A stretch of DNA of 64,000 bases from Clostridium sp. BJN0013. GTDB lineage: Bacteria > Bacillota > Clostridia > Clostridiales > Clostridiaceae. The DNA lies in assembly GCF_040939125.1 (NCBI RefSeq), contig NZ_CP162495.1, positions 372,001-436,000 on the forward strand, in the 5' to 3' direction. Both the position numbers and the translations under genes were made by a program. A model generated the notes under the pieces. That model searched no databases, was not told the DNA's origin, and saw only the letters and a list, made by a program, of their open reading frames with translations. Shown here in pieces: positions 5,601 to 60,550 of the stretch; the first letter of the stretch is position 1, and each line of letters starts with the position of its first letter.

Positions 5601-5800
5601 TATCCGAATGCCACCAGTACTAATACTCCCATCTTCTTTAACGTGAGAGATAAGCACTGGTACGCACCTGGATAAGTTCTTCCCCTAAAGGATAACGTAT
5701 TCTAAGTGTTAAAGACACTAAGAATACTGTTAATAAGCTTCAGATGGAAGTAAGTATTTCTCTATAGCAAACTCCGCTTGAATCTAAGAATTACTTGATT
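5601..5800 (+). repeat. two-hairpin intergenic repeat, copy A (with internal insertion)
   Basis: Starts TATCCGAATG and ends TTACTTGATT, the same termini as copy G. It holds the conserved apical loop TTCTTTAACG (5634-5643) and the junction CTGGATAAGTTCTTC. It is about 50 bases longer than the other copies because a separate hairpin (5697-5727) interrupts the left arm of the second hairpin. It begins directly after the T-run of the FMN riboswitch terminator and ends 45 bases before the ribU start. Confidence 0.85.
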
Positions 5801-5845
5801 ATTCACCTAGGAGATTATACTTGATATTTTAGGAGGGTATTTAAA

Positions 5846-6472
5846 ATGAGCAGTAGTAAATTAAACAGATTAGTGAAGGTATCATTGTTAGGTGTAATAG
5901 GATTTTTATTTATGTTCATAGAAGTTGCAATTCCTATATTTCCAACATTTTTAAAAATGGATATAAGCGATTTGCCGGCTTTAATTGGAACTTTTGCATT
6001 AGGACCTGGTGCTGGGATTGCTATAGAGTTTTTAAAAAATGTACTTCATGGAATATTCAATGGTAAAACTGCATTTGTAGGAGAACTTGCAAACTTTGCA
6101 GTAGGATCAGTTTTAGTTTTTACAGCGGGGTATATATATAACAGACATAAGACCAAAAAGGTGGCAGTAATCAGTTTAGGGGTAGCCACTATTGCAATGT
6201 CAGTGGTAGCAGGACTTTTGAATTATTTCATATTGCTTCCGCTTTATGAGAGAGCGCTTAATTTTCCTATAAGTGCAATGGTGGACATGGCAGCAAAAAT
6301 AAACAGCAGCATAACGGATTTGAATACATTTGTATTACTGGCTATTGTTCCATTTAACTTGTTAAAAGGTATAACTCTTACCATTTTAACACTAGTTCTT
6401 TACAAGAGTGTTTCACCTCTGCTAAAGCAGGAACATAATAAAATAAAGAACTCTGAAAAAGTAAAAATTTAG
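5846..6472 (+). CDS. ribU: riboflavin ECF transporter substrate-binding subunit RibU
   Basis: S-component of an energy-coupling-factor transporter that imports riboflavin with a shared EcfAA'T module encoded elsewhere. The 208-aa protein has about five or six transmembrane helices, with the family-typical DISDLPALIGTFALGPGAGI stretch around residue 40 and the VELKNVLHG-like EFLKNVLHGIF following. The AGGAGGG sequence lies 8 bases before the ATG. The preceding FMN riboswitch confirms the substrate. An unusual feature is the 200-bp repeat element between the riboswitch terminator and the RBS, so the ribU message carries two long hairpins in its leader. Confidence 0.95.
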   Translation: MSSSKLNRLVKVSLLGVIGFLFMFIEVAIPIFPTFLKMDISDLPALIGTFALGPGAGIAIEFLKNVLHGIFNGKTAFVGELANFAVGSVLVFTAGYIYNRHKTKKVAVISLGVATIAMSVVAGLLNYFILLPLYERALNFPISAMVDMAAKINSSITDLNTFVLLAIVPFNLLKGITLTILTLVLYKSVSPLLKQEHNKIKNSEKVKI

Positions 6473-6487
6473 CACAAAATGGCAACT

Positions 6488-6518
6488 AAAAATCTGGGAC
6501 ATGTATCCAGATTTTTTT
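6488..6518 (+). terminator. Rho-independent terminator after ribU
   Basis: AAATCTGGG/TCCAGATTT hairpin followed by seven T, 16 bases after the ribU stop. Confidence 0.85.
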
Positions 6519-6613
6519 ATTGTATTTTGACTTTATAAAATAGTAATTCTATACGATAATCTATATAATTTTAATTAGGAGACATTTTTAATAAATTATA
6601 AAGGGTGATTAAG

Positions 6614-8284
6614 TTGGCGGGAATATGGAATATAAATAGTGTATATAATATGAATAACAAACAAATATCTGCAAAATTATCTTTTGAAATAGGAGAGAAA
6701 TTTTCTGCTAAAGTACTGAATTTAAATAAATATACAGGAGAAATACTTTTAAAACTCTTAGATGGATGGAAATTTTCAGCTCAAATAGATAATCCTGAAA
6801 ATATTGTAGAAAATAAGCTTATAAGGCTTCAGGTAGAGGGATTTGAAAATGAAAAGCTAAAATTAAAAATTGTTACTGCAGAAGAAGAACGGCAAAATCA
6901 AAGCAAAGATTCCATAAAACTTTTTATTAAGGAAAATTCCCTTAACTTAAACAGTGAAGATTATGACATTATAGAGAAAATGGTTAAAAGTGAAATACCA
7001 CTTACTAAGGAAAATATTTCCGATATAAAAACCATGATAGATTTTATAAACAAAATAAAAGAAAATCCTACAGAAGAAGATACATTTATAAAAAATTATT
7101 TACTTAGTAAAAATGTAGAATCTGATAGCCAAAAAGGAAATTTTATAAAAGATACCCTTAAAAATTTCTTTAGTGAACTAAAAAATATAAGTAAAGAAGA
7201 CTTATTTATTCTACTAGAAAATAATATAGAATTAAATGAAGATAATATAAAAAGCTTTAATAAAGTGTTTAAACAGGAGGGTACTATATATAATGAAGTA
7301 AAATATTTAGGGGATATTTTGAAAGCTGATGAATTAACTTATAAGAGCATAGAAAATACTGAAAATGCAAAAAAATCTGGTATATATAAAAAACAGCAAG
7401 ACAATATAGTAGGTAATTTAAATACAGATGGAAAAGTTACTTATGCAGATGGAGAAAAATCAAATACAGATTTAAGACCTAGTATAATGACAGAAAATAT
7501 AGATAAACCAAATGAATTCTCAGATGAAATAAAAAGTATCAATGGTGAAGATAAATCACAGACTAAAAATAATCAATCGTTAGATATAAATAAAAATATT
7601 AGTCCTAAAGATATACAGGAAGAGGAGATTAAAGGGAAATTAGATAATATACTTAACTATTTTGAAAAGGAAAAAGGAACAACGTCTCGAACTTCTAAAG
7701 ATTTAAATGTGATTGCAGGTAATATGGATGAAATGGTAAATCATATAAAAGAGCAGATAAATATGAAAACAGATGAAATGAAAGATATAATAAGAACATT
7801 TTTAGAACAAAATAATGATAGTGAAAATAAATTTTCTAAAAATATAATTTCTCAATTAAATAGCAGCGTAAATGATTTTAAGTTATTTAACACCATATCT
7901 AATTCTTATTATTATATGGATTTGCCTATAAATTTAAATGATATGGATTATCAGTGCAAGCTTATGATTAAAGATGATAGAAAAAAAGGGAAAAAAATAG
8001 ATGCAACTAATGTGAAGATAATAACATCTATAAGTACTGAAAATATGGGAATAGTAGATGCTTATTTGACAGTGAATAATATCAATATGAATATAGATAT
8101 TAAGTGTAATAAAGAGTGGATAAGCTTCATGAAACAGGGATATAAAACAATACTAGAGAGTTTATCAAACATAGGGTATAATATAGATATTGCATTTCAT
8201 GAAAAAAAAGAAGAGATGAACATATCTACCTGTAGAGAATTTTTTGATGATAATGACATAGGGATGTTAAATACCAGAGCTTGA
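6614..8284 (+). CDS. YlqG-like protein with FliK-type C-terminal domain
   Basis: Roughly 556-aa protein of the YlqG type. The first 90 residues form a beta-rich globular part (SAKLSFEIGEKFSAKVLNL). The middle is long, Asn/Lys/Glu-rich and probably disordered. The last 130 residues resemble the flagellar hook-length control (FliK) C-terminal fold, where NMGIVDAYLTVNNINMNIDI corresponds to the LG-x-V-x-L pattern. The next gene encodes a free FlhB C-terminal domain, the same pair as B. subtilis ylqG-ylqH, so a role with the flagellar export switch is inferred, not shown. A TTG at 6614 is chosen because AAAGGGTGA lies six bases before it; a GTG at 6605 is the alternative. Confidence 0.75.
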   Translation: MAGIWNINSVYNMNNKQISAKLSFEIGEKFSAKVLNLNKYTGEILLKLLDGWKFSAQIDNPENIVENKLIRLQVEGFENEKLKLKIVTAEEERQNQSKDSIKLFIKENSLNLNSEDYDIIEKMVKSEIPLTKENISDIKTMIDFINKIKENPTEEDTFIKNYLLSKNVESDSQKGNFIKDTLKNFFSELKNISKEDLFILLENNIELNEDNIKSFNKVFKQEGTIYNEVKYLGDILKADELTYKSIENTENAKKSGIYKKQQDNIVGNLNTDGKVTYADGEKSNTDLRPSIMTENIDKPNEFSDEIKSINGEDKSQTKNNQSLDINKNISPKDIQEEEIKGKLDNILNYFEKEKGTTSRTSKDLNVIAGNMDEMVNHIKEQINMKTDEMKDIIRTFLEQNNDSENKFSKNIISQLNSSVNDFKLFNTISNSYYYMDLPINLNDMDYQCKLMIKDDRKKGKKIDATNVKIITSISTENMGIVDAYLTVNNINMNIDIKCNKEWISFMKQGYKTILESLSNIGYNIDIAFHEKKEEMNISTCREFFDDNDIGMLNTRA

Positions 8285-8329
8285 TTGTGATAGCTAAAAA
8301 ACATCTGAGAATTAAATAAGGGGAATATT

Positions 8330-8596
8330 ATGAAAAAGAGAAAAAAGGCAGTAGCTTTAAAGTATGAACAAACTTATGAAGCACCTATGGTTACTGCCGC
8401 AGGTATTGGACAAATAGCGGATAACATATTAAATAAAGCCAGGGAAAGCAATGTACCTATAGTTTATGACCAGGAACTGACTAATCTTTTGAGTAATGTG
8501 GATATAGGAAATAGTATACCTATTGAACTATATGATGCAGTGGCAAAAGTGATAGCCTATGTAGTAGATGTAGACGAAAATATAAGTAGAAGGTGA
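8330..8596 (+). CDS. FlhB C-terminal domain homologue (FhlB/YlqH)
   Basis: 88-aa cytoplasmic protein equal to the C-terminal domain of the flagellar export switch protein FlhB. It carries the family pattern APMVTAAGIGQIADNILNKA, then ESNVPIVYDQELTNLL and GNSIPIELYDAVAKVIAYVV. It lacks the membrane domain and the NPTH autocleavage site of full FlhB, as other free FlhB-C proteins do. An AGGGGAA RBS precedes the ATG. It lies 45 bases after the YlqG-like gene and 4 bases before the phosphoesterase gene, so the three may be cotranscribed. No other flagellar genes are in the window. Confidence 0.88.
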   Translation: MKKRKKAVALKYEQTYEAPMVTAAGIGQIADNILNKARESNVPIVYDQELTNLLSNVDIGNSIPIELYDAVAKVIAYVVDVDENISRR

Positions 8597-8600
8597 TTGT

Positions 8601-9287
8601 GTGGCGTTATTTGCAATATCAGATTTACACTTGGATATAACTGGAAATAAACCAATGAATATCTTTGGACATAATTGGATTGATCATGATAAGAAAATAA
8701 AAAAAAATTGGATTGATAAAATAACCTGTGAGGATACAATACTTGTGGCAGGAGATATATCCTGGTCTATGAATATAAAATCAGGTTTTGGCGATTTAGA
8801 GTGGATTCATAACTTGCCTGGAAGAAAGATTATGGTAAAGGGCAATCATGATTATTGGTGGAGCAGCATTACTAAATTAAATGGTTTATATAGGGATATG
8901 GATTTTATACAAAATAATTTTTTTGTATATAAAGATTATGCCATATGTGGTACTAGAGGATGGCTTTGTCCAGGAAGTGAAAATTTTTCAACCCATGATG
9001 ATAAAATATATAATAGAGAGCTTTTGAGAATAAAAAATTCTTTAAATTCCGCAGTGAAAGCTGGATATGACAAATTTATAGTGATGATTCACTATCCCCC
9101 TATAGGAGAAAAATTCATGCATTCTGATTTTAGGTGTATATTTGAAAAGTATAGTGTAGAAAAAGTTATATATGGACACCTTCATGGAGAATCTCTCTCA
9201 AAGTCAGTAAAAGGATTTATAAATGGAGTAGAATACATAGTAACTTCTGCAGATTATATAGATTTTAATCCAATAAGAATAATGTGA
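8601..9287 (+). CDS. metallophosphoesterase
   Basis: Calcineurin-like phosphohydrolase of 228 aa. The metal-binding motifs are in order: DLHLD (residues 8-12), GDISW (near 50), GNHDYWW (near 80), HYPP (near 160) and GHLHG (near 190). The start is a GTG at 8601 with AGAAGGTGA just upstream, overlapping the end of the previous gene's RBS region. The substrate is unknown. It ends in front of a converging DUF2225 gene. Confidence 0.88.
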   Translation: MALFAISDLHLDITGNKPMNIFGHNWIDHDKKIKKNWIDKITCEDTILVAGDISWSMNIKSGFGDLEWIHNLPGRKIMVKGNHDYWWSSITKLNGLYRDMDFIQNNFFVYKDYAICGTRGWLCPGSENFSTHDDKIYNRELLRIKNSLNSAVKAGYDKFIVMIHYPPIGEKFMHSDFRCIFEKYSVEKVIYGHLHGESLSKSVKGFINGVEYIVTSADYIDFNPIRIM

Positions 9288-9293
9288 AATAGA

Positions 9294-9358
9294 TTACAGG
9301 TTATGCTACAAGTTAAAATATTTTCAAAAATAAAGTAATTTGCACTTAACCTGTAAGA
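9294..9358. terminator. inverted repeat between convergent genes, possible bidirectional terminator
   Basis: TTACAGGTTA and TAACCTGTAA form a perfect 10-bp stem around a loop of about 40 bases, between two converging genes. The long loop makes the call tentative. Confidence 0.45.
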
Positions 9359-9366
9359 TTTAAGTA

Positions 9367-10167
9367 TTATTTGTGAAATTTAGAAAAAATATTTTGTTTT
9401 TTATTATCTTTTAAATTATCTTCAGAGTTTGTATCATCTAAATTGGTTTTTATCAAATCTTTTTGATCACGAGCCATATTTTTAATTTTTTGTGATGCTG
9501 TAGGAGCGGTTATTACTTGTCCAAACCATATTAAAGATTCGTCTTCTTTATCAGTACGTCTGCATAGTTCACCTATAAGGTACATAGTAGTAAATCTATC
9601 CATACCGCATATAGGGAAACTCTCATTATAGTAGGCGTTTTTGAAATTTTCCAGAGCATGATTTAAATAATCCAGTTCACTTTTTTTATCTTCTTTTAAT
9701 CGGAACATCCATGCTAGTTTTAGCAGGTTAATTGCTTTTTTGCTAGATCTGACTTTGATGATATCATAATTTAAAAGAGATAGTTTGTACCTTTGTATTG
9801 CTAAATTTAGATTATATACTTCAGGATAATGTTTACTATGCCATTTTGGTAAAATTTCAGTTCTTATTATATTTGCATCATAGTCACTTAAATTTTCAAA
9901 ATCACTTTTTATAGATGCATAACCGCATCTATCACATACCCATACATCATAAAAATATGGATTTATAATTAAATATCGTATAAAAAAATCAGAGTCTTTT
10001 TTTAATATTCTATATGAGGATTTTTTTATAGCCTTAGCATTAAATACTGTACTACAAACGGGACAAGTTATTTTTTTATTATAAAGCATTAGTTTTTGCT
10101 TATCTTCATCATATAGTTGGCTTTTATTCTCTGAAGTGTTTGAAGTTGAAAATGTGTTATCAAGCAT
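9367..10167 (-). CDS. DUF2225 family protein
   Basis: Cytoplasmic protein of about 266 aa. The N-terminal part holds two Cys pairs, ITCPVCSTVF and WVCDRCGYAS, which look like a zinc-binding unit, followed by a helical, TPR-like C-terminal half. This arrangement matches DUF2225 proteins of Firmicutes, whose function is unknown. The ATG at 10167 is chosen because GGAGGTGA lies 8 bases upstream; the frame stays open for 20 more codons with no RBS. It is divergent from the alarmone synthetase gene, with 123 bases between the starts. Confidence 0.8.
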   Translation of the reverse strand: MLDNTFSTSNTSENKSQLYDEDKQKLMLYNKKITCPVCSTVFNAKAIKKSSYRILKKDSDFFIRYLIINPYFYDVWVCDRCGYASIKSDFENLSDYDANIIRTEILPKWHSKHYPEVYNLNLAIQRYKLSLLNYDIIKVRSSKKAINLLKLAWMFRLKEDKKSELDYLNHALENFKNAYYNESFPICGMDRFTTMYLIGELCRRTDKEDESLIWFGQVITAPTASQKIKNMARDQKDLIKTNLDDTNSEDNLKDNKKQNIFSKFHK

Positions 10168-10290
10168 GTCTGTATCACCTCCACTAGTTAGTATAATTAT
10201 TATATCAAAGATATGGATTAAAATCATATATTTTTGATATATTTGGTATAATGATATTATACATAGTTGTCTGTTGGAGGTGAATTTATA

Positions 10291-11082
10291 ATGGCTATAG
10301 GGGAATGGAAAACATTCTTAATACCATATGACCAAGCTGTAGAAGAATTGAAAGTAAAATTTAAAAGTATACGAAAAGAATATAGAAGAAAAAATGAATA
10401 TTCGCCAATAGAATTTGTTACAGGTAGGGTGAAAGAGATATCTAGTATATTAGAGAAAGCTAATAAATTTAATATACCGCTTGATAGGATTAGATATGAA
10501 ATAGAAGATATAGCGGGCATAAGAATCATGTGTCAGTTTGTAGATGATATAGAGAAAGTAGTTCAAATAGTGAGGAATAGAAAAGATATGAATATAATGT
10601 ATGAAAAAGATTATATAGATAATGTAAAAGAAAGCGGTTATAGAAGCTATCATGTAATAATTAAGTATCCCGTTAATATGGCAGGGGGTGAAATGGAAAT
10701 ATTAGCCGAATTCCAGATAAGAACACTTGCTATGAATTTTTGGGCCACCATAGAACATTCTTTAAATTATAAATATAAACAAGATATACCAGATCACATT
10801 AAATTGAAACTTAAAAATGCCGCAGATGCTGCATTTCAGCTGGATGAACAGATGCTTGAAATTAAAGATGAAATAAAAGATGCCCAAAAATTATTTGAAG
10901 TAAAATCAAATTTAATCTCTGATATAATGAATAACATATTGACTTTGTCATCTATGGGCAAGCTAGTTGAAGCAACCCGGTATCAAGGGCAGTTAAATAA
11001 ATTAATTGAAGAGGGAGAAGTATTTGAGTTGGTAAATCTGTTAAGAGCTACAGAAAAACTACTTAAAATTTATAAACAATAG
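10291..11082 (+). CDS. small alarmone synthetase, RelA/SpoT domain (RelQ/YjbM-like)
   Basis: Single-domain (p)ppGpp synthetase of 263 aa, making the stringent-response nucleotide from GTP or GDP and ATP. The RelA_SpoT core includes RYEIEDIAGIRIMCQFVDDI, GYRSYHVIIKYPV and the ribose/Mg-binding EFQIRTLAMNFWATIEHSLN. There is no HD hydrolase, TGS or ACT domain. It resembles RelQ more than RelP, with a longer helical C-terminus. The ATG at 10291 is preceded by TTGGAGGTGA; the frame opens 8 codons earlier without an RBS. Confidence 0.9.
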   Translation: MAIGEWKTFLIPYDQAVEELKVKFKSIRKEYRRKNEYSPIEFVTGRVKEISSILEKANKFNIPLDRIRYEIEDIAGIRIMCQFVDDIEKVVQIVRNRKDMNIMYEKDYIDNVKESGYRSYHVIIKYPVNMAGGEMEILAEFQIRTLAMNFWATIEHSLNYKYKQDIPDHIKLKLKNAADAAFQLDEQMLEIKDEIKDAQKLFEVKSNLISDIMNNILTLSSMGKLVEATRYQGQLNKLIEEGEVFELVNLLRATEKLLKIYKQ

Positions 11083-11090
11083 TAATAAAA

Positions 11091-11112
11091 AACCACCAGT
11101 TAACTGGTGGTT
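11091..11112 (-). terminator. terminator of leuS
   Basis: Perfect 22-bp palindrome with arms AACCACCAGTT, followed on the minus strand by TTTTTTATT. It overlaps the last two bases of the leuS stop codon and also lies 8 bases beyond the stop of the converging alarmone synthetase gene. Confidence 0.85.
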
Positions 11113-13546
11113 AAGGTTTAACTACTATATTTACAAGCCTTCCTTTTACTACTATAACCTTTTTTATGTTTTTTCCCTCTAATAGAGATTTAATATGGTC
11201 ATTGGATATAGATAATTCTTTTATTTCCTCATCACTTAAATTTGTAGGTATATTTATTTTGGCTTTGATTTTACCGTTTATTTGAATAGCTATTTCTACC
11301 TCATCTTTTACTAAAGCTTTAGGGTCAAATTCAGGCCATTTTTCATTAAATATAGAATATTTTTGTCCTAGTACCTCCCATTGTTCTTCCGCAAAATGAG
11401 GTGCAAAAGGAGCTATTATTTTTATAAAATCAAGTATAGCATCTCTTAAAAGAGATATATTTTTAGCATCTTCCTGCATATACTTATAAAGTGAATTTGT
11501 AAATTCCATAATTCTGGCAATAGCTGTGTTAAATTGAAACTTGCCCGCATCTTCTGATACGGATTTTATTGAATAATTCCTTGAATAATTCAATTCTTTT
11601 TCTGCAGTATCCATTGAATTTTTAAAGTTTCCATCACTATTTATAAGTTCTTTTATATTTCCTACAATTCTTTCAATTCTATCTACAAATTTACTCATGG
11701 ATTTAATACCGTCGTCGTTCCAGGCACCACCTTCAGCGTAGTCAAATCCGAACATTAAGTACATTCTAAATACATCTGAACCATATTTTTGTATACAGTC
11801 ATCTGGAGATATGGTGTTGCCTTTTGACTTGCTCATTTTTTGACCATCAGGTCCAAGTATTAGTCCTTGATGTCTTAAAGATAGAAAAGGTTCATCAAAA
11901 TTTAAAAACCCCATATCTCTAAGTGCTTTAGTAATAAACCTGGCATATAAAAGGTGCATACATGCATGTTCAGGACCACCTACATACATATCTACAGGAA
12001 GGAGTTTATTTATTTTATCTTTATCAAAGGCTTTTTCTGTATTTTTATTATCAGCATATCTTAAATAATACCAGGAAGAACACACAAAGGTATCTAATGT
12101 ATCAGCTTCTCTTTTGGCAGACTGGCCGCAAATAGGGCATGTAGTATTCATAAACTCTTCTGATTTTAGAAGAGGAGATTTTCCATCAGGAGAAAATTGT
12201 ACGTTATAAGGAAGTTCAACTGGTAAATCACTTTCTGGTACTGGCACTGTACCACATTTTTTACAGTATATTATAGGTATAGGTGTTCCCCAGTATCTTT
12301 GTCTTGATACAAGCCAATCCCTTAATCTATAATTTGTTTTTCCAGAACCCAATCCTATACTTTCTAATTCCTTGGTTACAGCTTCTTTACCTTCTGGAGT
12401 ATATAATCCATTAAATTTATCACTATTTATCATATTACCATATTCTACATAGGGTAGGGAAGAACCCCCTTCTATAACCCTTTCAATGGGTAATTTATAT
12501 TTTGTGGCAAATTCAAAATCCCTTTCGTCATGGGCAGGAACTGCCATCACAGCACCTGTACCATAGGTGTTTAACACATAATCTCCTATCCATATAGGTA
12601 CTTTTCTTCCGTTTATAGGATTTATAGCGTAGGAACCCGTAAATACACCTGTTTTTTCTCTGGTAATTGATTGTCTTTCAATGTCAGTTTGTTTTTTAGC
12701 AGCTTCTCTATATTTTTCAATTTGGTCTTTATATTCTTCTTTAGTAACACTATCCACTAAATCATTTTCAGGGGATATAACTACATAGGTAACACCAAAC
12801 AAGGTATCCACTCGAGTGGTAAATACATTAAATTTTATATTGGAATCTAATACTTTAAAAGTTACATCTGTACCTGTGGATTTACCTATCCAGTGTCTTT
12901 GCATAGCTTTTGTTTTTTCAGGCCAATCTATATTGTCAAGATCCCTAAGCAATTCTTCAGTATAGTCTGTGATCTTAAAAAACCATTGTGTTAAATCCTT
13001 TTTTGTAACTTCTGTACCACAACGTTCACATTCACCTTCTTTTACTTGTTCATTGGCGAGTACTGTATTACAGCTGGGACACCAGTTTACAGGAGCATTT
13101 TTTCTATAGGCTAAACCGTGTTTATACAATTGAAGAAATAGCCATTGATTCCATTTATAGTAATCAGAACGACAGGTGACTACCTCGTTTTCCCAATTGA
13201 ACATAGCTCCCATGGATTTAAGCTGTTTTTCCATGGTATCAATATTCTTTTCAGTAGAATCTTTTGGATGGATTCCAGTTTTTATAGCATAGTTTTCAGC
13301 AGGAAGACCAAAAGCATCAAATCCCATTGGTTGGAACACATTATATCCTTGCATTCTTTTCATTCTGGCCCAGGAATCTACAGGGGCATAGTTGAACCAA
13401 TGACCTGCATGAAGATTACTGCCAGAAGGATAAGAGAACATCTCTAAAGTATATAATTTTTTATCTAAATTTTTTTCATCAAAGGTATAAATATTTGTTT
13501 GGTCCCATTTCTGTTGCCATTTTTTATCTGTTTTAGTACTGTACAT
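11111..13546 (-). CDS. leuS: leucyl-tRNA synthetase
   Basis: Class I synthetase charging tRNA-Leu, 811 aa, full length. The HIGH motif is seen as HAGH in [17 protein letters not shown] near residue 45. The Cys-rich zinc-like [22 protein letters not shown] lies near 165-190, the editing domain near 225-415, and the KMSKS motif is seen as [10 protein letters not shown] near 575. The anticodon-binding domain follows. The start codon has AAAGGAGAA nine bases upstream. Expression is governed by a Leu T-box leader about 280-520 bases upstream; a repeat element (copy B) lies between the T-box terminator and the start. Confidence 0.97.
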
Positions 13547-13592
13547 AATATCTTCTCCTTTTACTTATGTTTTTGTGGATTAAAGAGATTTG

Positions 13593-13740
13593 ATCAAGTG
13601 ATTCTTGGATTCAGATGGAGTTTGTTTATAAGGAGTGCTTTCCTCCGTCTGAATCTTAGAAGAACTTATCCAGGCGCGTAACAGTGGTTATCTCCTACTG
13701 TGAAAAAATGAAAGTATTAGCTAATTGCGCGTTCGAATGA
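13593..13740 (-). repeat. two-hairpin intergenic repeat, copy B
   Basis: On the minus strand it runs from ATTCGAACGCGCAATTAGC to CTTGAT. The second hairpin is well preserved (TTCTAAGATTCAGA opposite TCTGAATCCAAGAA) and the junction is CCTGGATAAGTTCTTCT. The first hairpin's loop has drifted to a T-run and its outer TATCC end is degenerate. It sits 86 bases after the T-box terminator and 46 bases before the leuS start. Confidence 0.85.
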
Positions 13741-13825
13741 ATTACATCAGATAAGAAACAGTAGCTTTTGAATAATCTTGATTTAGACTTCCACATTTTT
13801 TTATTTCAGTATAGTTTTAGAATAT

Positions 13826-13868
13826 AAAAAAGCTTTTCATCTCTTAGGACTATAAGAGACGAAAAGAC
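13826..13868 (-). terminator. leuS T-box terminator
   Basis: CTTTTCGTCTCTTA/TAAGAGATGAAAAG hairpin followed by TTTTTT on the minus strand, immediately after the T-box sequence, as in transcription-attenuating T-boxes. Confidence 0.85.
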
Positions 13869-14068
13869 TACTTTCCGCGGTACCACTCTAATTAAATCAA
13901 TAAAATTGATTTCACTCAAAATAAATAACGGTTTCTACCGTATCTGATTTTTTCAGATAAAGCTCTTAAGGTGAGTTCATATTCTATTCACGCTGTTTTT
14001 CACCCTGCAACAGTTCTCTTTGGTGATATAAATACTACTATTCCTTCTTCAAAGCTAAGTATTGAATT
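13826..14068 (-). ncRNA. T-box leader of leuS (Leu, specifier CUC)
   Basis: On the minus strand the T-box sequence AATTAGAGTGGTACCGCGG (complement of 13874-13892) is diagnostic, since its TGGT/ACC part pairs with the uncharged tRNA acceptor end. Stem I includes AGAGAACTG and CAGGGTGAAAAACAGCGTGAA, and the specifier loop GAACTCACC gives CTC, a Leu codon, at 13975-13973. The specifier agrees with the downstream leuS gene. A terminator hairpin follows directly. Confidence 0.95.
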
Positions 14069-14077
14069 ATTTTACAT

Positions 14078-14105
14078 TTTATAATAGTAATTGACTTTTT
14101 GTCAA
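14078..14105 (-). promoter_or_regulatory. promoter of the leuS T-box transcript
   Basis: On the minus strand TTGACA (14105-14100) and TATAAA (14083-14078) are 16 bases apart. The predicted start near 14070 is just ahead of T-box stem I. Confidence 0.7.
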
Positions 14106-14147
14106 GAGCTGCCCTTAAATAAAGTAAATTATAATTTTAAAATTATT

Positions 14148-14182
14148 TTAAAAGAGAACCCGTAAAACAAGAGTTCTCTTTG
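14148..14182 (-). terminator. terminator of the tRNA-Gln gene
   Basis: AAAGAGAAC/GTTCTCTTT hairpin with a 13-base loop, starting at the tRNA CCA end and followed by TTAAAATAATTTT on the minus strand. Confidence 0.7.
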
Positions 14183-14255: not shown

Positions 14256-14281
14256 ATATTATGTGAATCTCAACACTAAAT

Positions 14282-14309
14282 ATTATATCATCATAAATTT
14301 ATATGTCAA
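14282..14309 (-). promoter_or_regulatory. promoter of tRNA-Gln
   Basis: On the minus strand TTGACA (14309-14304) and TATAAT (14287-14282) are separated by 16 bases, about 27 bases before the tRNA 5' end. Confidence 0.75.
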
Positions 14310-14333
14310 TAGTTTCATTTTAATAAAGCACAT

Positions 14334-17037: not shown

Positions 17038-17048
17038 AATATAATTTT

Positions 17049-17137
17049 TATCCGAATGCGGTAATTAGCTAATACTCCTATTTTCTTCAAAGTGGGAGAT
17101 AAGCGTAGCTAACACATCTAGATAAGTTCTTCTAAGG
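17049..17137 (+). repeat. two-hairpin intergenic repeat, copy C (half copy, overlaps fba 3' end)
   Basis: Contains the whole first hairpin (TATCCGAATGCG, loop TTCTTCAAAG at 17083-17092, TGGGAGATAAGC) and the junction GATAAGTTCTTCTAAGG, then stops. The second hairpin is absent. The junction portion, 17118-17137, lies inside the fba reading frame and encodes its last residues and stop. Confidence 0.85.
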
Positions 17138-18059
17138 AATTAGCTGATCCTAAAACATTATCTATTTTATCTTCAACAACTTTTTGAATAGCATCTCTTC
17201 CAGCACCTAAATATTTTCTTGGATCGAAAACCTTTGGACTATCTCCAAAAGTTTTTCTTATAGCAGCAGTCATGCTCAACCTAAGGTCTGTATCCATATT
17301 TATTTTACATACAGCCATACTAGAAGCTTTTCTAAGCATATCTATAGGGATTCCTTTGGCATCAGCTATGTTTCCGCCATATTTATTACAAGTTTCCACG
17401 GCTTTAGGATCTACAGCTGAAGCTCCATGGAGAACAATGGGAAAGTTTGGAAGGTTTTCCTGTATTTTTTCTAATATATCAAATCTTAATTTAGGTTTGA
17501 AGTTTGGAGGGAACTTAAAAGCTCCGTGGGATGTTCCTATGGCTATAGCTAGAGAATCTACACCCGTTCTATTTACAAAGTCTACAGCTTGTTCTGGATC
17601 CGTATATATATGATCTGAAGCAGATACTTCATCTTCAATTCCTGCAAGTACACCAAGTTCTGCTTCTACTACTACCCCGTGAGAATGAGAATAGTCTACT
17701 ACTTGTTTGGTTTGAGATACGTTGTCTTCATAGTCTAAATGTGAACCGTCAAACATAACAGAGGTAAAGCCTGTTTCTATACATAATTTTACAGTTTCAA
17801 AATCTGGACCATGATCTAAATGGAGGGCAATATCTATTCCAGTATCCTCTACAGCAGCATCTACCATAGCTTTTAAGTATTTTGGTCCTGCATATTTCAT
17901 TGCACTTGCTGAACATTGCAGAATAACAGCAGAATTTTTAGCTTTAGCTCCATTTACCACCCCTTGAATTATTTCCATATTGTTGATGTTAAATGCACCT
18001 ATTGAGTAATGTCTTTTGTAAGCCTTTTCAAACATTTTTTTAGTAGTAACTAATGCCAT
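17118..18059 (-). CDS. fba: fructose-1,6-bisphosphate aldolase, class II
   Basis: Zinc-dependent aldolase splitting or forming fructose 1,6-bisphosphate from dihydroxyacetone phosphate and glyceraldehyde 3-phosphate. The 313-aa protein shows the class II motifs: ALHLDHGPDFE (catalytic Asp and zinc His near 82-84), FDGSHLDYEDNV, VEAELGVLAG, IGTSHGAFKF, VLHGASAV and INMDTDLR. AAGGGTGAAAT precedes the ATG. The C-terminus ...VLGSANSLEELI is odd: the final SLEELI and the TAG stop are encoded by repeat copy C, so the natural end seems to have been replaced. In an organism living on ethanol and acetate the enzyme would serve gluconeogenesis (inference). Confidence 0.95.
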   Translation of the reverse strand: MALVTTKKMFEKAYKRHYSIGAFNINNMEIIQGVVNGAKAKNSAVILQCSASAMKYAGPKYLKAMVDAAVEDTGIDIALHLDHGPDFETVKLCIETGFTSVMFDGSHLDYEDNVSQTKQVVDYSHSHGVVVEAELGVLAGIEDEVSASDHIYTDPEQAVDFVNRTGVDSLAIAIGTSHGAFKFPPNFKPKLRFDILEKIQENLPNFPIVLHGASAVDPKAVETCNKYGGNIADAKGIPIDMLRKASSMAVCKINMDTDLRLSMTAAIRKTFGDSPKVFDPRKYLGAGRDAIQKVVEDKIDNVLGSANSLEELI

Positions 18060-18446
18060 TTCTTATTTCACCCTTTCAATAATAAAATATTTTTAGGTAT
18101 CTGAGAATAAATAATAATTGCAGGATAATAAATCTATTTTAAAATATTATTATGTAAAATAGATTCCCATATCAACTATTTATTTGTTTCAAGATGCCTT
18201 TTTTAAAATATATATATTTAATGTTATTTTAAATGCCAATACTATTAACAATCAATTTCCATTATACATTAATATTTAGTATTTTCCATAATCTAATTTT
18301 TAAAATTTTTTTAATTTAATATTCATGGTTATTATGATATTAAGTATATGCTATATCTTTAACAATATACTATAAATATATAATATATACATTTATAGTA
18401 TATCATAAATAATTTATTTTTACTATAATATTCAATATAATGCATT
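18060..18446. other. AT-rich intergenic stretch upstream of fba
   Basis: Extremely A+T-rich with many TATA runs. It must hold the fba promoter (minus strand), but no -35/-10 pair stands out over the background. No ORF with an RBS, hairpin terminator or repeat is seen before copy D. Confidence 0.5.
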
Positions 18447-18596
18447 TATCTGAAGACAGCAATTATCTGACACCTCCATCTTCTTCAAAGCGGGGGTGAT
18501 TACTGCCGCGCTTCTGGGTAAGTTCTTCTGAGGTTAAGATGGGGAGAAAAGCATTCTTATGAGTAAAATTCTACCTGAACCCAAGAATCACTTGAT
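18447..18596 (+). repeat. two-hairpin intergenic repeat, copy D
   Basis: Full copy from TATCTGAAGAC to CTTGAT. The inner stem of the first hairpin is CACCTCC/GGGGGTG, different from the other copies yet still fully paired, around the invariant loop TTCTTCAAAG (18481-18490). The right end abuts the DUF4363 gene and shares one base with its stop codon. Confidence 0.88.
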
Positions 18597-23637: not shown

Positions 23638-23786
23638 ATCAAGTGATTCCTAGATTTAAGTGGAGTTTGCTCATAAGGAATGCTTTTTTCATCTGAATTT
23701 TAGAAGAACTTATCCAAATACGGAGCATGGCTTATCTTCCACTTTGAAGAAGTTGGGAGTATTAGCACAATGGTAGTTTTTGGATA
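23638..23786 (-). repeat. two-hairpin intergenic repeat, copy E
   Basis: Reverse-oriented full copy of 149 bp, from ATCAAGTGATTCC to TTTTGGATAA on the plus strand. The loop reads CTTTGAAGAA at 23742-23751. It ends 37 bases before the start of the next gene, leaving almost no room for another promoter there. Confidence 0.88.
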
Positions 23787-23822
23787 AATTATGTATGATA
23801 AATTTAAGATAGGGTGATAAAT

Positions 23823-41001: not shown

Positions 41002-41150
41002 ATCAAATGATTCTAAGGTTCAGGTGGAGTTTGCTATGGAGAAATACTTATCTTCATCTGAACCTTAGAAGAACTTATCCAGGCGCGTAGCAGTGCTTAT
41101 ATTCCACTTTAAAGAAGATGGGAGTATTAGCAATGGTAGCGTTCCGGATA
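41002..41150 (-). repeat. two-hairpin intergenic repeat, copy F
   Basis: Reverse-oriented full copy, 149 bp, ATCAAATGATTC to GTTCCGGATA. The second hairpin is perfect over 13 bp (TTCTAAGGTTCAG/CTGAACCTTAGAA). The loop reads CTTTAAAGAA at 41107-41116. It begins 12 bases after the ftsX terminator and ends 110 bases before ctp. Confidence 0.9.
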
Positions 41151-41260
41151 AAGTATTAATAAATAGTGGTGCAAATTTATTTTTTTTAGTGTTATAATTA
41201 TTTAAGATTTACATAAATACTATATATAGTGAATGTTTCAGAAAATGAGGTGTTAATAGA

Positions 41261-51950: not shown

Positions 51951-52090
51951 TTAAAATTTAAACTTTTCTCGGGAAATTTCACAGCAAAGGATAAAGTTTC
52001 TTTGAATTTAATGTTATAATATAGGTACTTAAAAAGTCGTTAAATGGCAAGTGAGATTTTAATATTGTAACTTTTTTTGAAGGAGAAAAT

Positions 52091-52696: not shown

Positions 52697-52713
52697 TCTT
52701 AGGAGTGAATTTA

Positions 52714-54582: not shown

Positions 54583-54785
54583 ATAAATTTAGTTTGATAT
54601 AGCAATATAGTTTGTATAATATACTATAATTGGCGGTATTAATAGGTAAAAATCACAGATGAGATAATATAATAATCGTCATATTGCTAATTTTAAGTAG
54701 ATTATATCTAAATATTGATTAAGAATTATACATACATTATACTGAGTATGATACATAATTTTAATTTTCGAGGAGAATATTTATA

Positions 54786-55700
54786 ATGAACAAGTTTAAA
54801 GATTTTGCTATAAAGTTAAGAGAGATATTGGATATAGAGGATATAAAAATAGATGAGTCTATGAAAGAACATACCTCATTTAAAGTAGGAGGACCTGTAG
54901 ATGTATTGCTTACCCCTGAAAATTTTAATCAGGTAGTAGATGTGGTGAAATTATGTAAAAAGGAAAATGTACCTTATTATATAATGGGAAATGGCTCCAA
55001 TTTACTGGTAAAAGATGGTGGTATAAGGGGTATAATGATTAAACTTATAAAATTAAATAAAATTCAGGTTAAAGGAAACAAAATTGTTACAGAAAGTGGT
55101 GCATCATTAAAAGATATTTCAACTGTAGCACTAGAAAACTGTTTAACAGGATTTGAGTTTGCCTGTGGTATCCCCGGAAGTGTAGGTGGTGCAGTTACCA
55201 TGAACGCAGGTGCCTATAATGGAGAAATTTCAAATGTGATAGAAAGTGCCAAAGTTATATGTAATAGTGGGGAAATTATATCACTTAATAGAGAAGAAAT
55301 GGAACTAGGTTATAGAATGAGTTCTATATTGAAAAATGGATATACCATTTTAGAAGTTACATTTAATCTGCAAAAGGGTAATAAACAAAATATAATGAGC
55401 CGTATAGAAGACCTGAATAGAAGAAGAAATGAAAAACAACCTTTGGAGTATGCTTCTGCAGGCAGCACCTTTAAAAGACCACAGGGACATTTTGCTGCGA
55501 AGCTTATAGAGGATAGTGGCTTAAAGGGAGAAAGTGTAGGGGATGCACAGGTATCTGAAAAACATTCAGGTTTTATAATAAACAAGGGAAATGCTACTGC
55601 AAGGGATATTTTGACTTTAATATCTATTGTACAGGATAGGGTAAAGCAAAACTTCGATATAGATTTATATACTGAAGTTAGAATTATAGGGGAAGACTAG
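54786..55700 (+). CDS. murB: UDP-N-acetylenolpyruvoylglucosamine reductase
   Basis: 304-aa FAD enzyme of peptidoglycan precursor synthesis, type IIb. FAD-binding parts are [14 protein letters not shown] and [21 protein letters not shown]; catalytic Ser and Glu lie in [10 protein letters not shown] and YTEVRIIG, and the Lys/Arg in HTSFKVGGP and GYRMSS. The length is normal. A CGAGGAG RBS precedes the ATG. It starts the murB-rapZ-yvcK-whiA-ytoI-dnaE block. Confidence 0.97.
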
Positions 55701-55714
55701 ATAAAGATAGGATA

Positions 55715-55760
55715 TTGAAGCTGGAGGATTAGTGTATACTGCACTGGATTCTCCTTTTTA
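55715..55760 (+). terminator. possible terminator after murB
   Basis: GGAG/CTCC and TAGTG/CACTG stems with a small internal loop, followed by TTTTTAG. Confidence 0.5.
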
Positions 55761-55869
55761 GTTATATTTTATTGTTATAGTTGGTTATGTTATAATTAAG
55801 AAATAAATATGTACTGTAATTGTGAATTTGAAGTGTTCGGATAAAATATTGCTCATGGAGGGATGTACT

Positions 55870-56751
55870 GTGAGATTTGTTATAGTAACAGGATTGTCTG
55901 GAGCCGGAAAAACTCAAGCCATAAGAAATTTAGAAGATTTAGGTTTCTTTTGTGTAGATAATCTACCCCCTACACTAATACCTAAATTTGCAGAAGCCTG
56001 TTATCAAACTGACGGAAAAATTGATAAAATAGCACTTGTTATAGATATAAGAGGAGGACAATTTTTTGATGATATTTTTGAGAGTTTAAATTATCTACAA
56101 AAACAAGGATATAAATATGAAATATTATTTTTAGATGCTTCAGATGAAGTATTGATTAAAAGATTTAAAGAATCTAGAAGAAAACATCCTCTGGCACCTG
56201 ATGGCAGAATTTTAAATGGAATACTCATGGAAAGGAATAGACTTAGGGAAATAAAAGATAGATCAGATAACATAATAGATACCTCTAAATTGGCAACAAG
56301 AGAACTTAGAGAAGAGATAACAAGGATATATTCCGAAGAAGGCCAAATGGAGACTCAATTGATAATTACCGTGCTTTCTTTTGGTTTTAAATATGGTATA
56401 CCTGTTGATTCGGATTTGGTATTTGATGTGAGATTTCTACCTAATCCTTTCTATATTTCTGAACTGAAAAAGCATTCCGGCAGAGATAAAATTGTAGTTG
56501 ATTATATAATGAATTTTAAGGAAACTGTTGAATTTATAGATAAGCTGGAGGATATGTTGGAATTTTTAATACCAAATTATTTGAAAGAAGGTAAAAGACA
56601 ACTTATTGTATCTATAGGATGTACAGGAGGAAGACACCGCTCTGTAACTATTGCAAATACTATTTATAATAGATTAAAAGATAATGGCCATAGGGTGAAC
56701 ATAGACCACAGGGATATAGAAGAAGATATTAAAGGTGGTAAAAAGCTATGA
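55870..56751 (+). CDS. rapZ: RNase adapter/nucleotide-binding protein RapZ (YvcJ)
   Basis: 293-aa P-loop protein. Walker A is GLSGAGKT (residues 8-15). Further signatures are [63 protein letters not shown] and the C-terminal [17 protein letters not shown]. coli RapZ adapts RNase E to GlmZ; in Firmicutes YvcJ hydrolyses nucleotides with unclear targets. The GTG at 55870 follows GGAGGG by 7 bases; the frame extends 16 codons upstream with no RBS. It overlaps yvcK by 4 bases. Confidence 0.95.
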
Positions 56752-58076
56752 AGATTATAGATTGGTTTAGACCTGGCATTAAGGTTAAAAGATGGGTTAT
56801 GCTGGGGGCTATGGGGGTACTTTTTATAATATTTGGGGTAATTGAGTTTATAAATAGAAGATTCTATAGTCCTTATTATATATCTTTTTATATATTCTTG
56901 ATGGCATCAGGAATTTTTGTGGTATATATTTCTATAACTCAAGGAATGAGATCTATAATAGCTCTTATAAACAAGGGATATTTAAGTGTATCTTTAGATT
57001 CTAAAAAGTTGGAAAATTTAATATATGAGAAACGTTTATTAGTCAAAGGTCCTAAAATTGTTGCTATAGGAGGAGGTACTGGCCTTTCTACTATGCTTAG
57101 AGGTCTTAAATACTACACTTCAAATATAACAGCTATAGTTACCGTGGCAGATGATGGAGGAGGCTCTGGAGATCTTAGAGAGGATCTTGGAATGCTTCCA
57201 CCTGGAGATATCAGAAACTGTATAATGGCCCTTGCAGACACAGAACCTCTTATGGAAGAACTTCTGCAGTACAGGTTTAAAGATGGAAGGCTAAAAAATC
57301 AAAGTTTTGGTAATTTGTTTCTAGCGGCTATGGATGGCATATCCGGAAACTTTGAGGAGGCTGTTCATAAAATGAGTTCTGTACTTGCGGTAACGGGAAG
57401 GGTAATGCCAGTTACCCTGGATAATCTGGTTTTAAGGGCAAAGTTAAAGAATGGCACTATAGTATCTGGAGAGTCCAATATTCCTCAGCAAGCCATTAAT
57501 CAAAACACTTGTATAGATAAAATATTTATAGAACCTGAAAATGCTAGAGCTTTAAGGGAAGCAGTAGATGCCATACTGGAAGCAGATGCGATAATATTGG
57601 GACCGGGAAGTCTTTATACCAGTGTAATTCCAAATCTTTTGGTAAAAGATATAGCAAATGCAGTAAGAAAAACTCCGGCTATAAGACTTTATGTTTCAAA
57701 TATAATGACCCAGCCGGGAGAAACGGATGGATTTTCTGTGGAGGATCATATAAGTACTATTTTTAAGCATGTAGGAAATGATATAATGGATTATGTAATT
57801 GTTAATGTGGGAAAAATAGATGTAGAACTAGAAGGAAAATACAAAGAAGAAGAATCCCATTTGGTAAAAATAAATGATGATAAAGTATCTTCTTTAGGTG
57901 TAAAAGTTATTGAAGGAGATTTTATAAGTATTAAAAATGGATTAATAAGGCATAATTCTGAAAAATTAGCATCCATATTAATAGAAACTATTATGGATAA
58001 AAAACTTTTATATGATAGAAAGAAAAGAATAGAGTATTTCTATTTGTCAGAGAGATTAAAAGAAAATAAAAGATAA
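56748..58076 (+). CDS. yvcK: gluconeogenesis factor family protein YvcK
   Basis: 442-aa CofD/YvcK-fold protein with two N-terminal helices (about 17-35 and 45-62), then the UDP-sugar-binding core: [45 protein letters not shown] and [12 protein letters not shown]. In B. subtilis YvcK is needed for normal morphology on gluconeogenic carbon sources and binds UDP-GlcNAc. That would suit an organism making sugars from acetate. It lies between rapZ and whiA in the canonical order. Confidence 0.95.
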
Positions 58077-58089
58077 GCGGGAGAGAGAT

Positions 58090-59040
58090 ATGTCATTTTC
58101 ATTGAAAGTAAAAAATGAAATTTGTAGATATAGAATTATTAGTGAAAGGGAAGCTGTAGCAGAATTATCTGCAATAATGAAAGTAAGTGGAACCTTGCTT
58201 TTAGGTGCAAATAAACATTTTAATTTTAAAATAATTACTGAAAATGCTGCCACTGCTAGACTTATATTCAGAATATTAAAGGATAAATTTGATATACATA
58301 CCAAAATACTTGTTAAAAAAAATAATTCCTTTAAGAAAAATAATGTTTATATGATAATGATAACGGAAAATATGGATGTAAAATCCTTACTTAGAAAAGT
58401 GGGGATTTTAAAAGAAGAGGATAATGTTTTTTCTTTAAATTACAGTATACCTAAGAATATTATGGAAAGTGAAGAACTTAAAAGAGCCTATATTAGAGGA
58501 GCTTTTTTAGGAGGAGGGAGTATCAGTAATCCGGAAAAAACTTATCATCTTGAATTTGTTACCCATAATAATGAATATGCAAAAGAATTGAGTAACCTTA
58601 TAAATGGATATGGGTTAAATTCTAAAGTAATACAGAGAAAAAATAGTTTTATAATATACCTTAAAGAAGGGGAACAAATAGTAGATTTATTAAATATAAT
58701 AGGAGCTCATTCTTCTCTTTTGGAATTGGAGAACATAAGAATAATAAAGGAAATGAGAAATAATGTTAATAGACTTGTAAACTGTGAAACTGCAAATTTA
58801 AGTAAAACTGTAAATGCGTCTGTAAGACAATCTGAAAGTATAAAACTTATACAAAGGGAAATAGGTCTAAATAGGCTTCCTACTAATTTAAAAGAAATTG
58901 CACAATTAAGATTAAAATATCCAGATGAATCTTTAAAGGAGTTAGGTGAAATGCTAACTCCCAAAGTGGGTAAATCCGGAGTAAATCATAGATTGAGAAA
59001 AATTGAAAAAATAGCAGACGAACTAAGAAGAGAAAGGTAG
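58090..59040 (+). CDS. whiA: DNA-binding protein WhiA
   Basis: 316-aa regulator or nucleoid-associated protein. An N-terminal homing-endonuclease-like (LAGLIDADG) fold without catalytic residues (KRAYIRGAFLGGGSISNPEKTYHLEF) is followed by the C-terminal WhiA helix-turn-helix domain (NRLPTNLKEIAQLRLKYPDESLKELGEM). It promotes sporulation in Streptomyces and cell division or chromosome segregation in Bacillus. GCGGGAGAGAG precedes the ATG. Third gene of rapZ-yvcK-whiA. Confidence 0.96.
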   Translation: MSFSLKVKNEICRYRIISEREAVAELSAIMKVSGTLLLGANKHFNFKIITENAATARLIFRILKDKFDIHTKILVKKNNSFKKNNVYMIMITENMDVKSLLRKVGILKEEDNVFSLNYSIPKNIMESEELKRAYIRGAFLGGGSISNPEKTYHLEFVTHNNEYAKELSNLINGYGLNSKVIQRKNSFIIYLKEGEQIVDLLNIIGAHSSLLELENIRIIKEMRNNVNRLVNCETANLSKTVNASVRQSESIKLIQREIGLNRLPTNLKEIAQLRLKYPDESLKELGEMLTPKVGKSGVNHRLRKIEKIADELRRER

Positions 59041-59051
59041 GAACTTATTCA

Positions 59052-60356
59052 ATGTCAAAGCATGAGAAGCTAATGGAATACATACTTTCATTAAAAGCTG
59101 GAACCAGAATTTCAGTTAGAAGCGTAGCCAGTGAATTAGGCGTTAGCCATGGAACTGTATATAGGGCTATAAAACATTCTGCTGATCTTGGTATAGTTAC
59201 TACCATTCCCAGAGTGGGAACTGTAAGGATAGAAAAGGTTGAAAAGAAAAATATAGAAAAATTAACTTATGCTGATGTTATAAATATTGTAGATGGAAAT
59301 TTACTTGGAGGAAAAGATGGAATATATAAGATATTACACCATTTTATAATAGGTGCCATGACTCTAGATACTATGAAGCAGTACATAGAGAAAGATTGTC
59401 TTGTTATAACGGGTAACAGAGAAGAAGTTCAAAAACTTGCTATTCTAAATGGAGCAGGAGTTCTTATAACAGGAGGTTTTAAATGTAGTAATGAAATAAA
59501 GAAATTGGCAAATAAGAAGTGCCTTCCAATAATATCTACAAATTATGATACATTTACAGTGGCAAGTATGATAAATAGAGCACTTTCAGAAAATTTGATA
59601 AAAAAAGAAATAGTTCTTGTAGAAGATATAATGCAAAATGATCCTTGTTATCTCAAAGATACGGATACAGTGTACGTATGGAGAAAAATAATGGAAAAAG
59701 TTAATTACAAAATATATCCTGTGGTAGACAATCAAAAAAGAGTATTAGGAATCGTATCTTTAGAGGATCTGCCAAATCATAATTTGGATAATGAACCTGT
59801 AAGTAAGATAATGCGTAAAGATCCCATTGTAGTAAAACCCAAAACTACAGTGGCTTATGCGGCTCATATGATGGATTTAAAAGGATTGGAAGTATTTCCT
59901 GTAGTAAATTATAAAAAGCTTATAGGAATTATAACTAAAAGAGATATAATAAAAGCACTTCATTATATGGCAAGGCAGCCTCAATCAGGAGAGACACTGG
60001 AAGATCTGATACTAAAAAAATTTAAATGGCAGGTAAGAGATAATAAGTTTTGTTTTATAGGAAAAATAACTCCAGAAATGTTAAATGATATAGGAACAGC
60101 TTCGTGGAGTTCTTTAAATATGATTTTGTCTACCATGGCCATCGTAACTTTGAGGCAGAAAAGTAATACTAATATGTTGGTAGTGGACAGCATAAGCACA
60201 TATTTTATGAAACCTATACAAATAGATAAGCAGATTGAAATATATATTGATGTAATAGATCTTGGAATAAATCATTGCAAAGTAGAGGTAAATATGTTTA
60301 ATAACAAGAATATAGCTGGAAAATGTATTTTATCTGCAAGGATAATAAGAAAGTGA
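59052..60356 (+). CDS. YtoI-like regulator: HTH, DRTGG, CBS pair and hotdog domains
   Basis: 434-aa multidomain protein. An N-terminal winged-helix (LKAGTRISVRSVASELGVSH, residues 1-65) is followed by a DRTGG domain (about 70-180), two CBS domains (about 190-305; SKIMRKDPIVVKPKTTVAYAA) and a C-terminal thioesterase-like hotdog domain (about 320-430). B. subtilis YtoI has the same layout and lies near dnaE, as here. The ligand and targets are unknown; the CBS and DRTGG domains suggest adenine-nucleotide sensing. It begins 11 bases after whiA. Confidence 0.88.
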   Translation: MSKHEKLMEYILSLKAGTRISVRSVASELGVSHGTVYRAIKHSADLGIVTTIPRVGTVRIEKVEKKNIEKLTYADVINIVDGNLLGGKDGIYKILHHFIIGAMTLDTMKQYIEKDCLVITGNREEVQKLAILNGAGVLITGGFKCSNEIKKLANKKCLPIISTNYDTFTVASMINRALSENLIKKEIVLVEDIMQNDPCYLKDTDTVYVWRKIMEKVNYKIYPVVDNQKRVLGIVSLEDLPNHNLDNEPVSKIMRKDPIVVKPKTTVAYAAHMMDLKGLEVFPVVNYKKLIGIITKRDIIKALHYMARQPQSGETLEDLILKKFKWQVRDNKFCFIGKITPEMLNDIGTASWSSLNMILSTMAIVTLRQKSNTNMLVVDSISTYFMKPIQIDKQIEIYIDVIDLGINHCKVEVNMFNNKNIAGKCILSARIIRK

Positions 60357-60375
60357 TTTACTATTAGAAATTTTC

Positions 60376-60406
60376 GGTAGACTGGCGTGCTGACCGGCTA
60401 TTTTTT
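60376..60406 (+). terminator. terminator after the ytoI-like gene
   Basis: TAGACTGG/CCGGCTA stem (one bulge) followed by six T. Repeat copy G begins at the end of this T-run. Confidence 0.75.
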
Positions 60407-60550
60407 ATCCGAGGGCTATGGGTGAGAATTTCCGGTTTCTTCAAAGCGGGAAATAAGCACTGATACGCCCCTGGATAAGTTCTTATAAGATTTAGATGGA
60501 GAAAAACATTTCTTATAGTAAACTCTATCTGAATATAAGAATCACTTGAT
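60406..60550 (+). repeat. two-hairpin intergenic repeat, copy G
   Basis: Full 145-bp copy from TATCCGAGGGC to CACTTGAT. The inner stem of hairpin one is ATTTCC/GGGAAAT around TTCTTCAAAG (60437-60446), and the base of hairpin two is TTCTTATA/TATAAGAA. Both differ from the other copies while staying paired. It fills the space between the terminator and the dnaE RBS. Confidence 0.9.

Follow-up and report, generated by a model that had tools for sequence, protein, structure and literature searches.

Seven copies of a two-hairpin element are scattered through 64,000 nucleotides of Clostridium sp. BJN0013 (contig NZ_CP162495.1, positions 372,001 to 436,000; this whole stretch is called the window below), and they raise the question of whether such a family is mobile DNA or a structured RNA that is kept at each site for its function. 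A sequence-only reading of the window had described the seven copies and named both candidates, a recurrent structured RNA or a repeat resembling miniature inverted-repeat transposable elements (MITEs) and REPs. The copies themselves are real, as a covariance model recovers 7/7 at E 3.2e-13 or better, with the shared ends, the junction CTGGATAAGTTCTTCT and the loop TTCTTCAAAG as described; the earlier coordinates were right within a few bases except at the right end of the half copy (copy C, Table 1). This model was built on a 56-row alignment to which five of the seven window copies contributed (four as window rows and the 18445 copy as L001). Based on the comparisons below, the copies most probably form one family of short non-autonomous mobile DNA elements whose hairpins are recognised as DNA by an enzyme acting in trans (probability about 0.78). 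Mobile DNA is favored because orthologous empty sites are precise, insertion occurs 3' of TTTAT and no target is duplicated.

The empty sites come from a comparison of 464 kb of this genome (G000) with 480 kb from each of two sister genomes, G004 and G011, in which aligned blocks are mostly 89-96% identical. By flank mapping of 27 full-length G000 copies, 12 sites are empty in both sisters, 6 are filled in both, 2 fall in gaps in both and 4 could not be mapped, while of the remaining three, two are empty in G004 (one of them filled and the other gapped in G011) and one is empty in G011 but unmappable in G004. On rechecking, two of the 12 doubly empty calls were dropped, namely 291240, where the sisters hold a partial copy, and 395638 (copy E), where the left flank is unaligned across the site and the junction failed a strict check. 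Eight of the other ten pass the strict junction check in at least one sister, and overall 20 of 37 candidate comparisons pass, representing 12 distinct sites. Private insertions passing the same check are found once in G004 (4321760) and twice in G011 (3510070, 3722325). A full copy at G011 C2:3674473-3674671 was rejected as a further private insertion, as G004 keeps its right end alone (AATCACTTGAT) near C1:4241.5 kb, which marks the site as deleted rather than empty. The earlier MITE/REP-like proposal is thus supported by empty orthologous sites that are precise, by insertions specific to one lineage and by intergenic copies dispersed in both orientations.

At the 12 strictly checked sites, read on the strand used in the sequence-only reading, the empty target is TTTAT in nine cases and TTAAT, TTTAC or CTTAT in one case each, all one base off. 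The filled site runs from the target into CC...CAC and then TTGAT in 11/12 cases and TTAAT in one, so that TTTAT is followed by CC...CACTTGAT, a right end that is nearly fixed within the genus. No target duplication is seen at these junctions unless a shared AT is counted as one.

The elements are about 130-155 bp long, with a longer variant of 167-206 bp, and both hairpins covary within the 56 copies as well as across 43 phylum-wide sequences. In the 56 copies, 88.5% of cells are paired and 98 paired cells are changed on both sides, compared to 48.0 +/- 6.0 after shuffling (0/500 shuffles as high) and at most 34 when the partner column is slid. Two weaker measures separate less, with 19 pairs showing a double change vs 15.3 (reached by 38/500 shuffles) and 59 further pair types vs 53.4 (16/500). 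The 43 phylum-wide sequences are 91.8% paired and have 214 double-changed cells vs 57.8 +/- 6.2 shuffled, slid controls reaching at most 42, and all five covariation measures are matched by 0/500 shuffles. The compensated stem changes noted in the window therefore hold under a statistical test in larger alignments, though the rows of the 56-copy alignment themselves supplied its structure and the 43-sequence alignment was fitted to the model. For alignments A2 and A3, one alignment-folding tool gave almost no structure; RNAalifold found structure and was used.

The longer variant accounts for 26/282 element matches, overlapping loci being counted repeatedly (e.g. L107:2996-3199 and window 5599-5799). 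Its extra middle hairpin ends in GTTATCC and resembles hairpin 2 of distant phylum members. Perhaps, this variant is a chimera of two branches.

Strong covariation is what a regulator or RNA-stability element in untranslated regions would produce, and such an RNA is also suggested by folding z-scores that range from -3.4 to -5.9 in four copies whichever strand is folded, by the position of copies A and B between a leader RNA and its gene, and by some compensated changes between orthologous copies. Selection on RNA, however, should tolerate G.U and not A.C in the stems. Stem mismatches in the 43 elements comprise 72 G.U vs 65 A.C (1,673 cells), or 45:60 without the two most G.U-rich columns. 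For the 56 copies, pairs predicted from the ATCAAG-first strand give 149:141, and those predicted on both strands give 118:138. Unlike these stems, tRNA stems (acceptor and T, 27 tRNAs encoded in the same DNA) give 22:1. Orthologous copies are also only 83.0% identical, compared to 94.2% in aligned non-coding and 92.4% in coding flanks (15 pairs, with some sites in more than one genome pair), and their stem changes lead to A.C in 81 cases, to G.U in 63 and to other mismatches in 44 (some sites counted twice). Such decay argues against a function of each copy. Presence and absence at orthologous sites, an orientation to transcription without clear bias (23:16 among full-length copies) and the Rfam results point the same way. 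Within the window no copy has a gathering-score match, M-box, T-box, FMN and tRNA being the only families matched. At ten distant loci searched with E up to 5, the only match on an element was mir-289 at E 4.4, which is far below the gathering score and at chance level. Given the near-equal G.U and A.C counts and the lower identity of orthologous copies compared to their flanks, it is unlikely that the family is a recurrent functional RNA, and in the form of an element retained copy by copy such an RNA would be a very improbable explanation. The earlier suggestion of a structured RNA is therefore unsupported.

Mobile DNA with folded ends would account for covariation in a different way. An enzyme supplied in trans may mobilise the elements by recognising their hairpins as DNA, in single-stranded or extruded form. 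In predicted folds the central motif GGATAAGT is able to pair with the left end and target (TTATCC) and with the right end (ACTT), so that the fold would bring the two cleavage points together. Strand transfer without duplication behind a TTTAT-like target could then follow, in a geometry like that of IS200/IS605 elements. Copies would decay after insertion, and selection on the structure would thus act through those copies that move, not through a role of every copy at its site.

Several observations weigh against this explanation. Seventeen of the 37 candidate empty comparisons fail the strict check, and the insertion could be read as a 2-bp duplication of AT. Between orthologous copies 21 stem pairs are fully compensated (some sites counted twice), which speaks for the RNA reading or else for mutation directed by the hairpins. 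Both these compensations and the low orthologous identity may have arisen by such mutation or by copies converting one another. One pair is G.U in 31/56 copies. The ATCAAG-first strand, opposite to that of the sequence-only reading, is more stable as RNA (mean minimum free energy -46.3 vs -39.9 kcal/mol, lower in 44/56 copies), although much of this is compositional, as composition-only shuffles give a similar offset (-30.0 vs -25.8 kcal/mol). Old copies also decay neutrally, in a symmetric manner, and this accounts for part of the balance of G.U and A.C. Finally, no mobilising enzyme was linked to the elements; for each of three candidates (Y1 transposase, reverse transcriptase, IS110) there are element-rich genomes that lack it. 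The Y1 transposase (PF01797) is absent from G003, G004, G015 and G025, which have at least 52, at least 52, 45 and 47 scored elements, and G004 nonetheless has its private insertion. Seven of 30 carriers in the phylum sample lack Y1 as well, and elements lie beside a Y1 gene (within about 1.5 kb on each side) at 1/43 loci.

These counts bear directly on the alternative that a standard IS200/IS605-type (Y1, HUH) transposase acts in trans on internally deleted derivatives of the PATE or REP-like kind, carriers without the gene having lost it. Members of the IS200/IS605 family insert 3' of a short target without duplication and have hairpins near their ends, and the present elements share this manner of insertion and the end hairpins with IS200/IS605-derived MITEs (PATEs). 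A weak association is also seen between carriers and PF01797, which is present in 23/30 carriers vs 203/368 other genomes (398 in total; odds ratio 2.7, p 0.02, with no correction for relatedness or genome size). Against this, no Y1 gene lies between ends of the present type in the G000 IS200 copies, at the 43 Y1 loci or in a scan of 1.9 Mb of DNA with half-element models, and membership of the IS200/IS605 family fails because no autonomous relative was found. In that scan, hairpin 1 lies within 25 nt of 148/213 hairpin-2 matches, a spacing of 54-135 nt marks the long variant, and in every more widely spaced pair one half belonged to a nearer partner as well or came from another copy. The ends of the resident IS200 are unrelated to the element ends, and it was rejected as the source for this reason. 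The Y1 alternative as a whole is doubtful, and the earlier proposal of movement by a transposase encoded elsewhere is so far unproven.

One broken Y1 gene does lie between two inverted copies, at L058:1340-2212 (G000 3953.4-3954.2 kb), where the end of an IS200 whose transposase is broken coincides with the TTTAT target of an element. This was rejected as a RAYT-like arrangement, as it is an ordinary-looking IS200 abutting a copy and the other 42 Y1 loci show no such pattern.

Reverse transcriptase (RVT_1) and IS110 were searched in 14 chosen genomes, six of them element-rich (G003, G004, G015, G025, G034 and G048). An RNA intermediate copied back by a reverse transcriptase, as in a bacterial short interspersed element (SINE), would fit a folded element inserted without duplication and diverse in sequence among its copies, and reverse transcriptase genes are present in G004, G025, G034 and G048. 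RVT_1 has no match in G003 and G015, however, and the stems lack a G.U bias, which makes this route highly unlikely. IS110-type recombination at a 2-bp AT core, with the element acting as its own bridge-like RNA, could be suggested by the shared AT dinucleotide, the two-hairpin layout and the IS110 genes of G003, G004 and G015. No IS110 was found in G025, G034 or G048, which disfavors it as an obligate partner, and in many phylum members the loop of hairpin 2 shrinks to a few bases and thus leaves little room for guide loops, so that this is hardly a credible route. As none of the three families is present in all six element-rich genomes, none can be an obligate present-day partner, although a partner lost after use is possible. 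The same result could speak for host functions alone, such as a ubiquitous recombinase or the processing of hairpins during replication or repair, without any dedicated partner. A strict target, fixed ends and patchy occurrence rather suggest a dedicated enzyme, and mobilisation by host functions is accordingly improbable.

The family of mobile elements extends well beyond this genome. The exact 20-base junction occurs in Clostridium carboxidivorans, C. ragsdalei, C. drakei, C. algidicarnis, C. uliginosum, C. tetanomorphum, C. peptidivorans, C. muellerianum, other Clostridium and Desulfosporosinus (at least 115 stretches). With the covariance model the family is found in 23/59 genomes (this one and 58 relatives), and 13 carriers besides this genome have at least 20 matches, with no more than 52 matches scored per genome. 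Among 12 relatives of the same genus, two have no match at E 0.001 and two have only one or two. In the phylum sample 30/398 genomes, this one counted, have members at E 0.001 per genome; 28 of these carriers are labelled as the same phylum only, one as the same family and one is this genome, and 0/13 of the same-class genomes listed have the family at that threshold. Of 30 loci that were read (29 from the phylum sample and one other), ATAAA (TTTAT on the opposite strand) forms the end of 25 and the start of 15, while six start with ATCAA as the Clostridium copies do. It is conceivable, though we hold it only tentatively, that these are parts of a superfamily of hairpin elements that spans the phylum, targets TTTAT and includes bcr1 as a branch. 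As folded DNA, its members would then be mobilised by a further class of enzyme outside Y1/HUH, reverse transcriptase and IS110.

Exact patterns gave no match on viral contigs, and three blastn queries gave none on phages. On plasmids, three queries gave no match and other queries found relatives on plasmids of Bacillaceae, one of these matching Peribacillus, Pseudalkalibacillus, one Klebsiella and one Pseudomonas plasmid. The 355-kb plasmid of Pseudalkalibacillus hwajinpoensis matches in five places, and two of its copies (L311:652-810 and 1001-1156) have a much longer hairpin 1. On the Klebsiella grimontii plasmid pNY3A, a degenerate Bacillus-type copy (L312:3000-3093) sits on a proteobacterial plasmid, perhaps as DNA of Bacillota origin.

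The sequence-only reading knew of no named family with this consensus. Rfam indeed holds none, but a family of the same kind is described in the available text of PMC6542083 and PMC3446304, namely bcr1-3 (group A repeats of the Bacillus cereus group), which are intergenic and MITE-like, with mobility tied to a TTTAT motif and with bcr1 in high copy. Bcr1 is 167 bp long, or 147 bp in earlier literature, as listed in part of PMC2267715. The present elements are likewise short and intergenic, occur in tens to hundreds of copies, vary among close relatives and have the TTTAT target at the majority of junctions noted above. By size, copy number and target they would work like bcr1-3, a likeness drawn from the published description. 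The title of a 2004 paper reportedly calls bcr1 specific to the B. cereus group; the present hosts are Clostridia and many other Bacillota, and the right end of the Clostridium branch is TTGAT, not TTTAT.

Other known repeats differ more clearly. Integron attC sites have a GTTRRRY core and are used by an integron integrase, and the likeness to them is a loose one of folded ends only. Classical DDE MITEs are set apart by ends (TTTATCC and CACTTGAT) that are not inverted repeats and by the lack of any duplication beyond the possible AT. REP and BIME sequences with RAYTs are dispersed intergenic palindromes with a possible Y1 link. In the available part of PMC3733652, REPs are 20-40 bp and many have a GTAG or CGTC tag, whereas the present elements reach 130-200 bp, some carriers have no Y1 at all, and the single Y1 locus flanked by copies is the broken IS200. 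The stem-loop families Clop-1 of C. perfringens (93 bp) and Clot-1 of C. tetani (74 bp), as listed in part of PMC2267715, are structured clostridial repeats of the intergenic type as well; they are set apart here by listed length only, and identity with part of the present family is possible. In open-licence PMC papers the present family was not found described.

In the genome as a whole, a 16-base core with up to two mismatches has 121 matches in 4.10 Mb (61 forward and 60 reverse; the reversed pattern gives 0 forward and 2 reverse), compared to which the window, with seven copies per 64 kb, is dense in elements. No eighth copy was found in the window at E 5e-5, and further matches at E up to 1 are only reverse-strand ones overlapping the same palindromes. 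Among the core matches listed, seven read TTAGAAGAACTTATAA, all forward (G000 235923, 281038, 291682, 1194189, 1224730, 1238232 and 1251217), and the one at 1238232 belongs to a shorter element of 133 nt (L007:215-347).

Table 1 Copies of the element in the window; strands refer to the ATCAAG-first reading, and E values are from the covariance model.
Copy	Position	Strand	Form	E value	Setting	Site in sister genomes
A	5599..5799	-	201-nt variant with extra middle hairpin	4.5e-18		
B	13593..13741	+	full	1.2e-26		empty in G004 and G011
C	17047..17148	-	partial: hairpin 1 plus junction	3.2e-13		
D	18445..18596	-	full	4e-21	abuts stop of DUF4363 gene	empty in G004 and G011
E	23638..23788	+	full	2.6e-27		
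F	41002..41152	+	full	1.1e-30	between ftsX and S41 peptidase gene (FtsX, Peptidase_S41)	empty in G004 (strict check) and in G011 (flank mapping)
G	60404..60550	-	full	2.1e-23		

The seven copies (Table 1) differ in their settings and apparent age. Copy A lies in the T-tract behind the terminator of an FMN riboswitch (5437-5555) and ahead of an ECF transporter gene (ECF_trnsprt). Its site (TTTTAT) holds the 201-nt version here and a 150-nt version in G011 (C2:3663136-3663285) and is empty in G004, which may mean that a hot spot was hit repeatedly or that copies underwent conversion. Copy B lies between a T-box leader (13852-14061) and the leucyl-tRNA synthetase gene (leucyl-tRNA synthetase editing domain). 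Copy C, at the 3' end of a class-II aldolase gene (F_bP_aldolase), is an older insertion, as its site is filled in both sisters, and the same is suggested for copy G by a 49-nt stretch in the sister genomes that resembles a deletion remnant.

Across the three compared stretches (G000, G004 and G011), 47/48 full-length copies lie outside called open reading frames. The 46 gaps that were classed comprise 39 tandem, 4 divergent and 3 convergent ones, similar to gaps overall. No recurrent neighbor gene was enriched when 427 open reading frames within 600 nt of an element were clustered with 652 further off at 188 loci, and the largest clusters look by eye like ordinary gene families.

New here are the clostridial and phylum-wide spread of the family, its junctions at base level, a covariation of DNA type and evidence that three mobiliser classes are not obligate partners. 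For intergenic repeats in general this is a warning that strong covariation of stems need not mean a functional RNA. If such a superfamily with its own class of enzyme is real, the element would be the only known trace of the activity of its enzyme. With a covariance model, defined junctions, carrier and nearly carrier-free species within one genus and three enzyme classes excluded as obligate partners, the search for the mobiliser becomes a direct question of comparative genomics and biochemistry.

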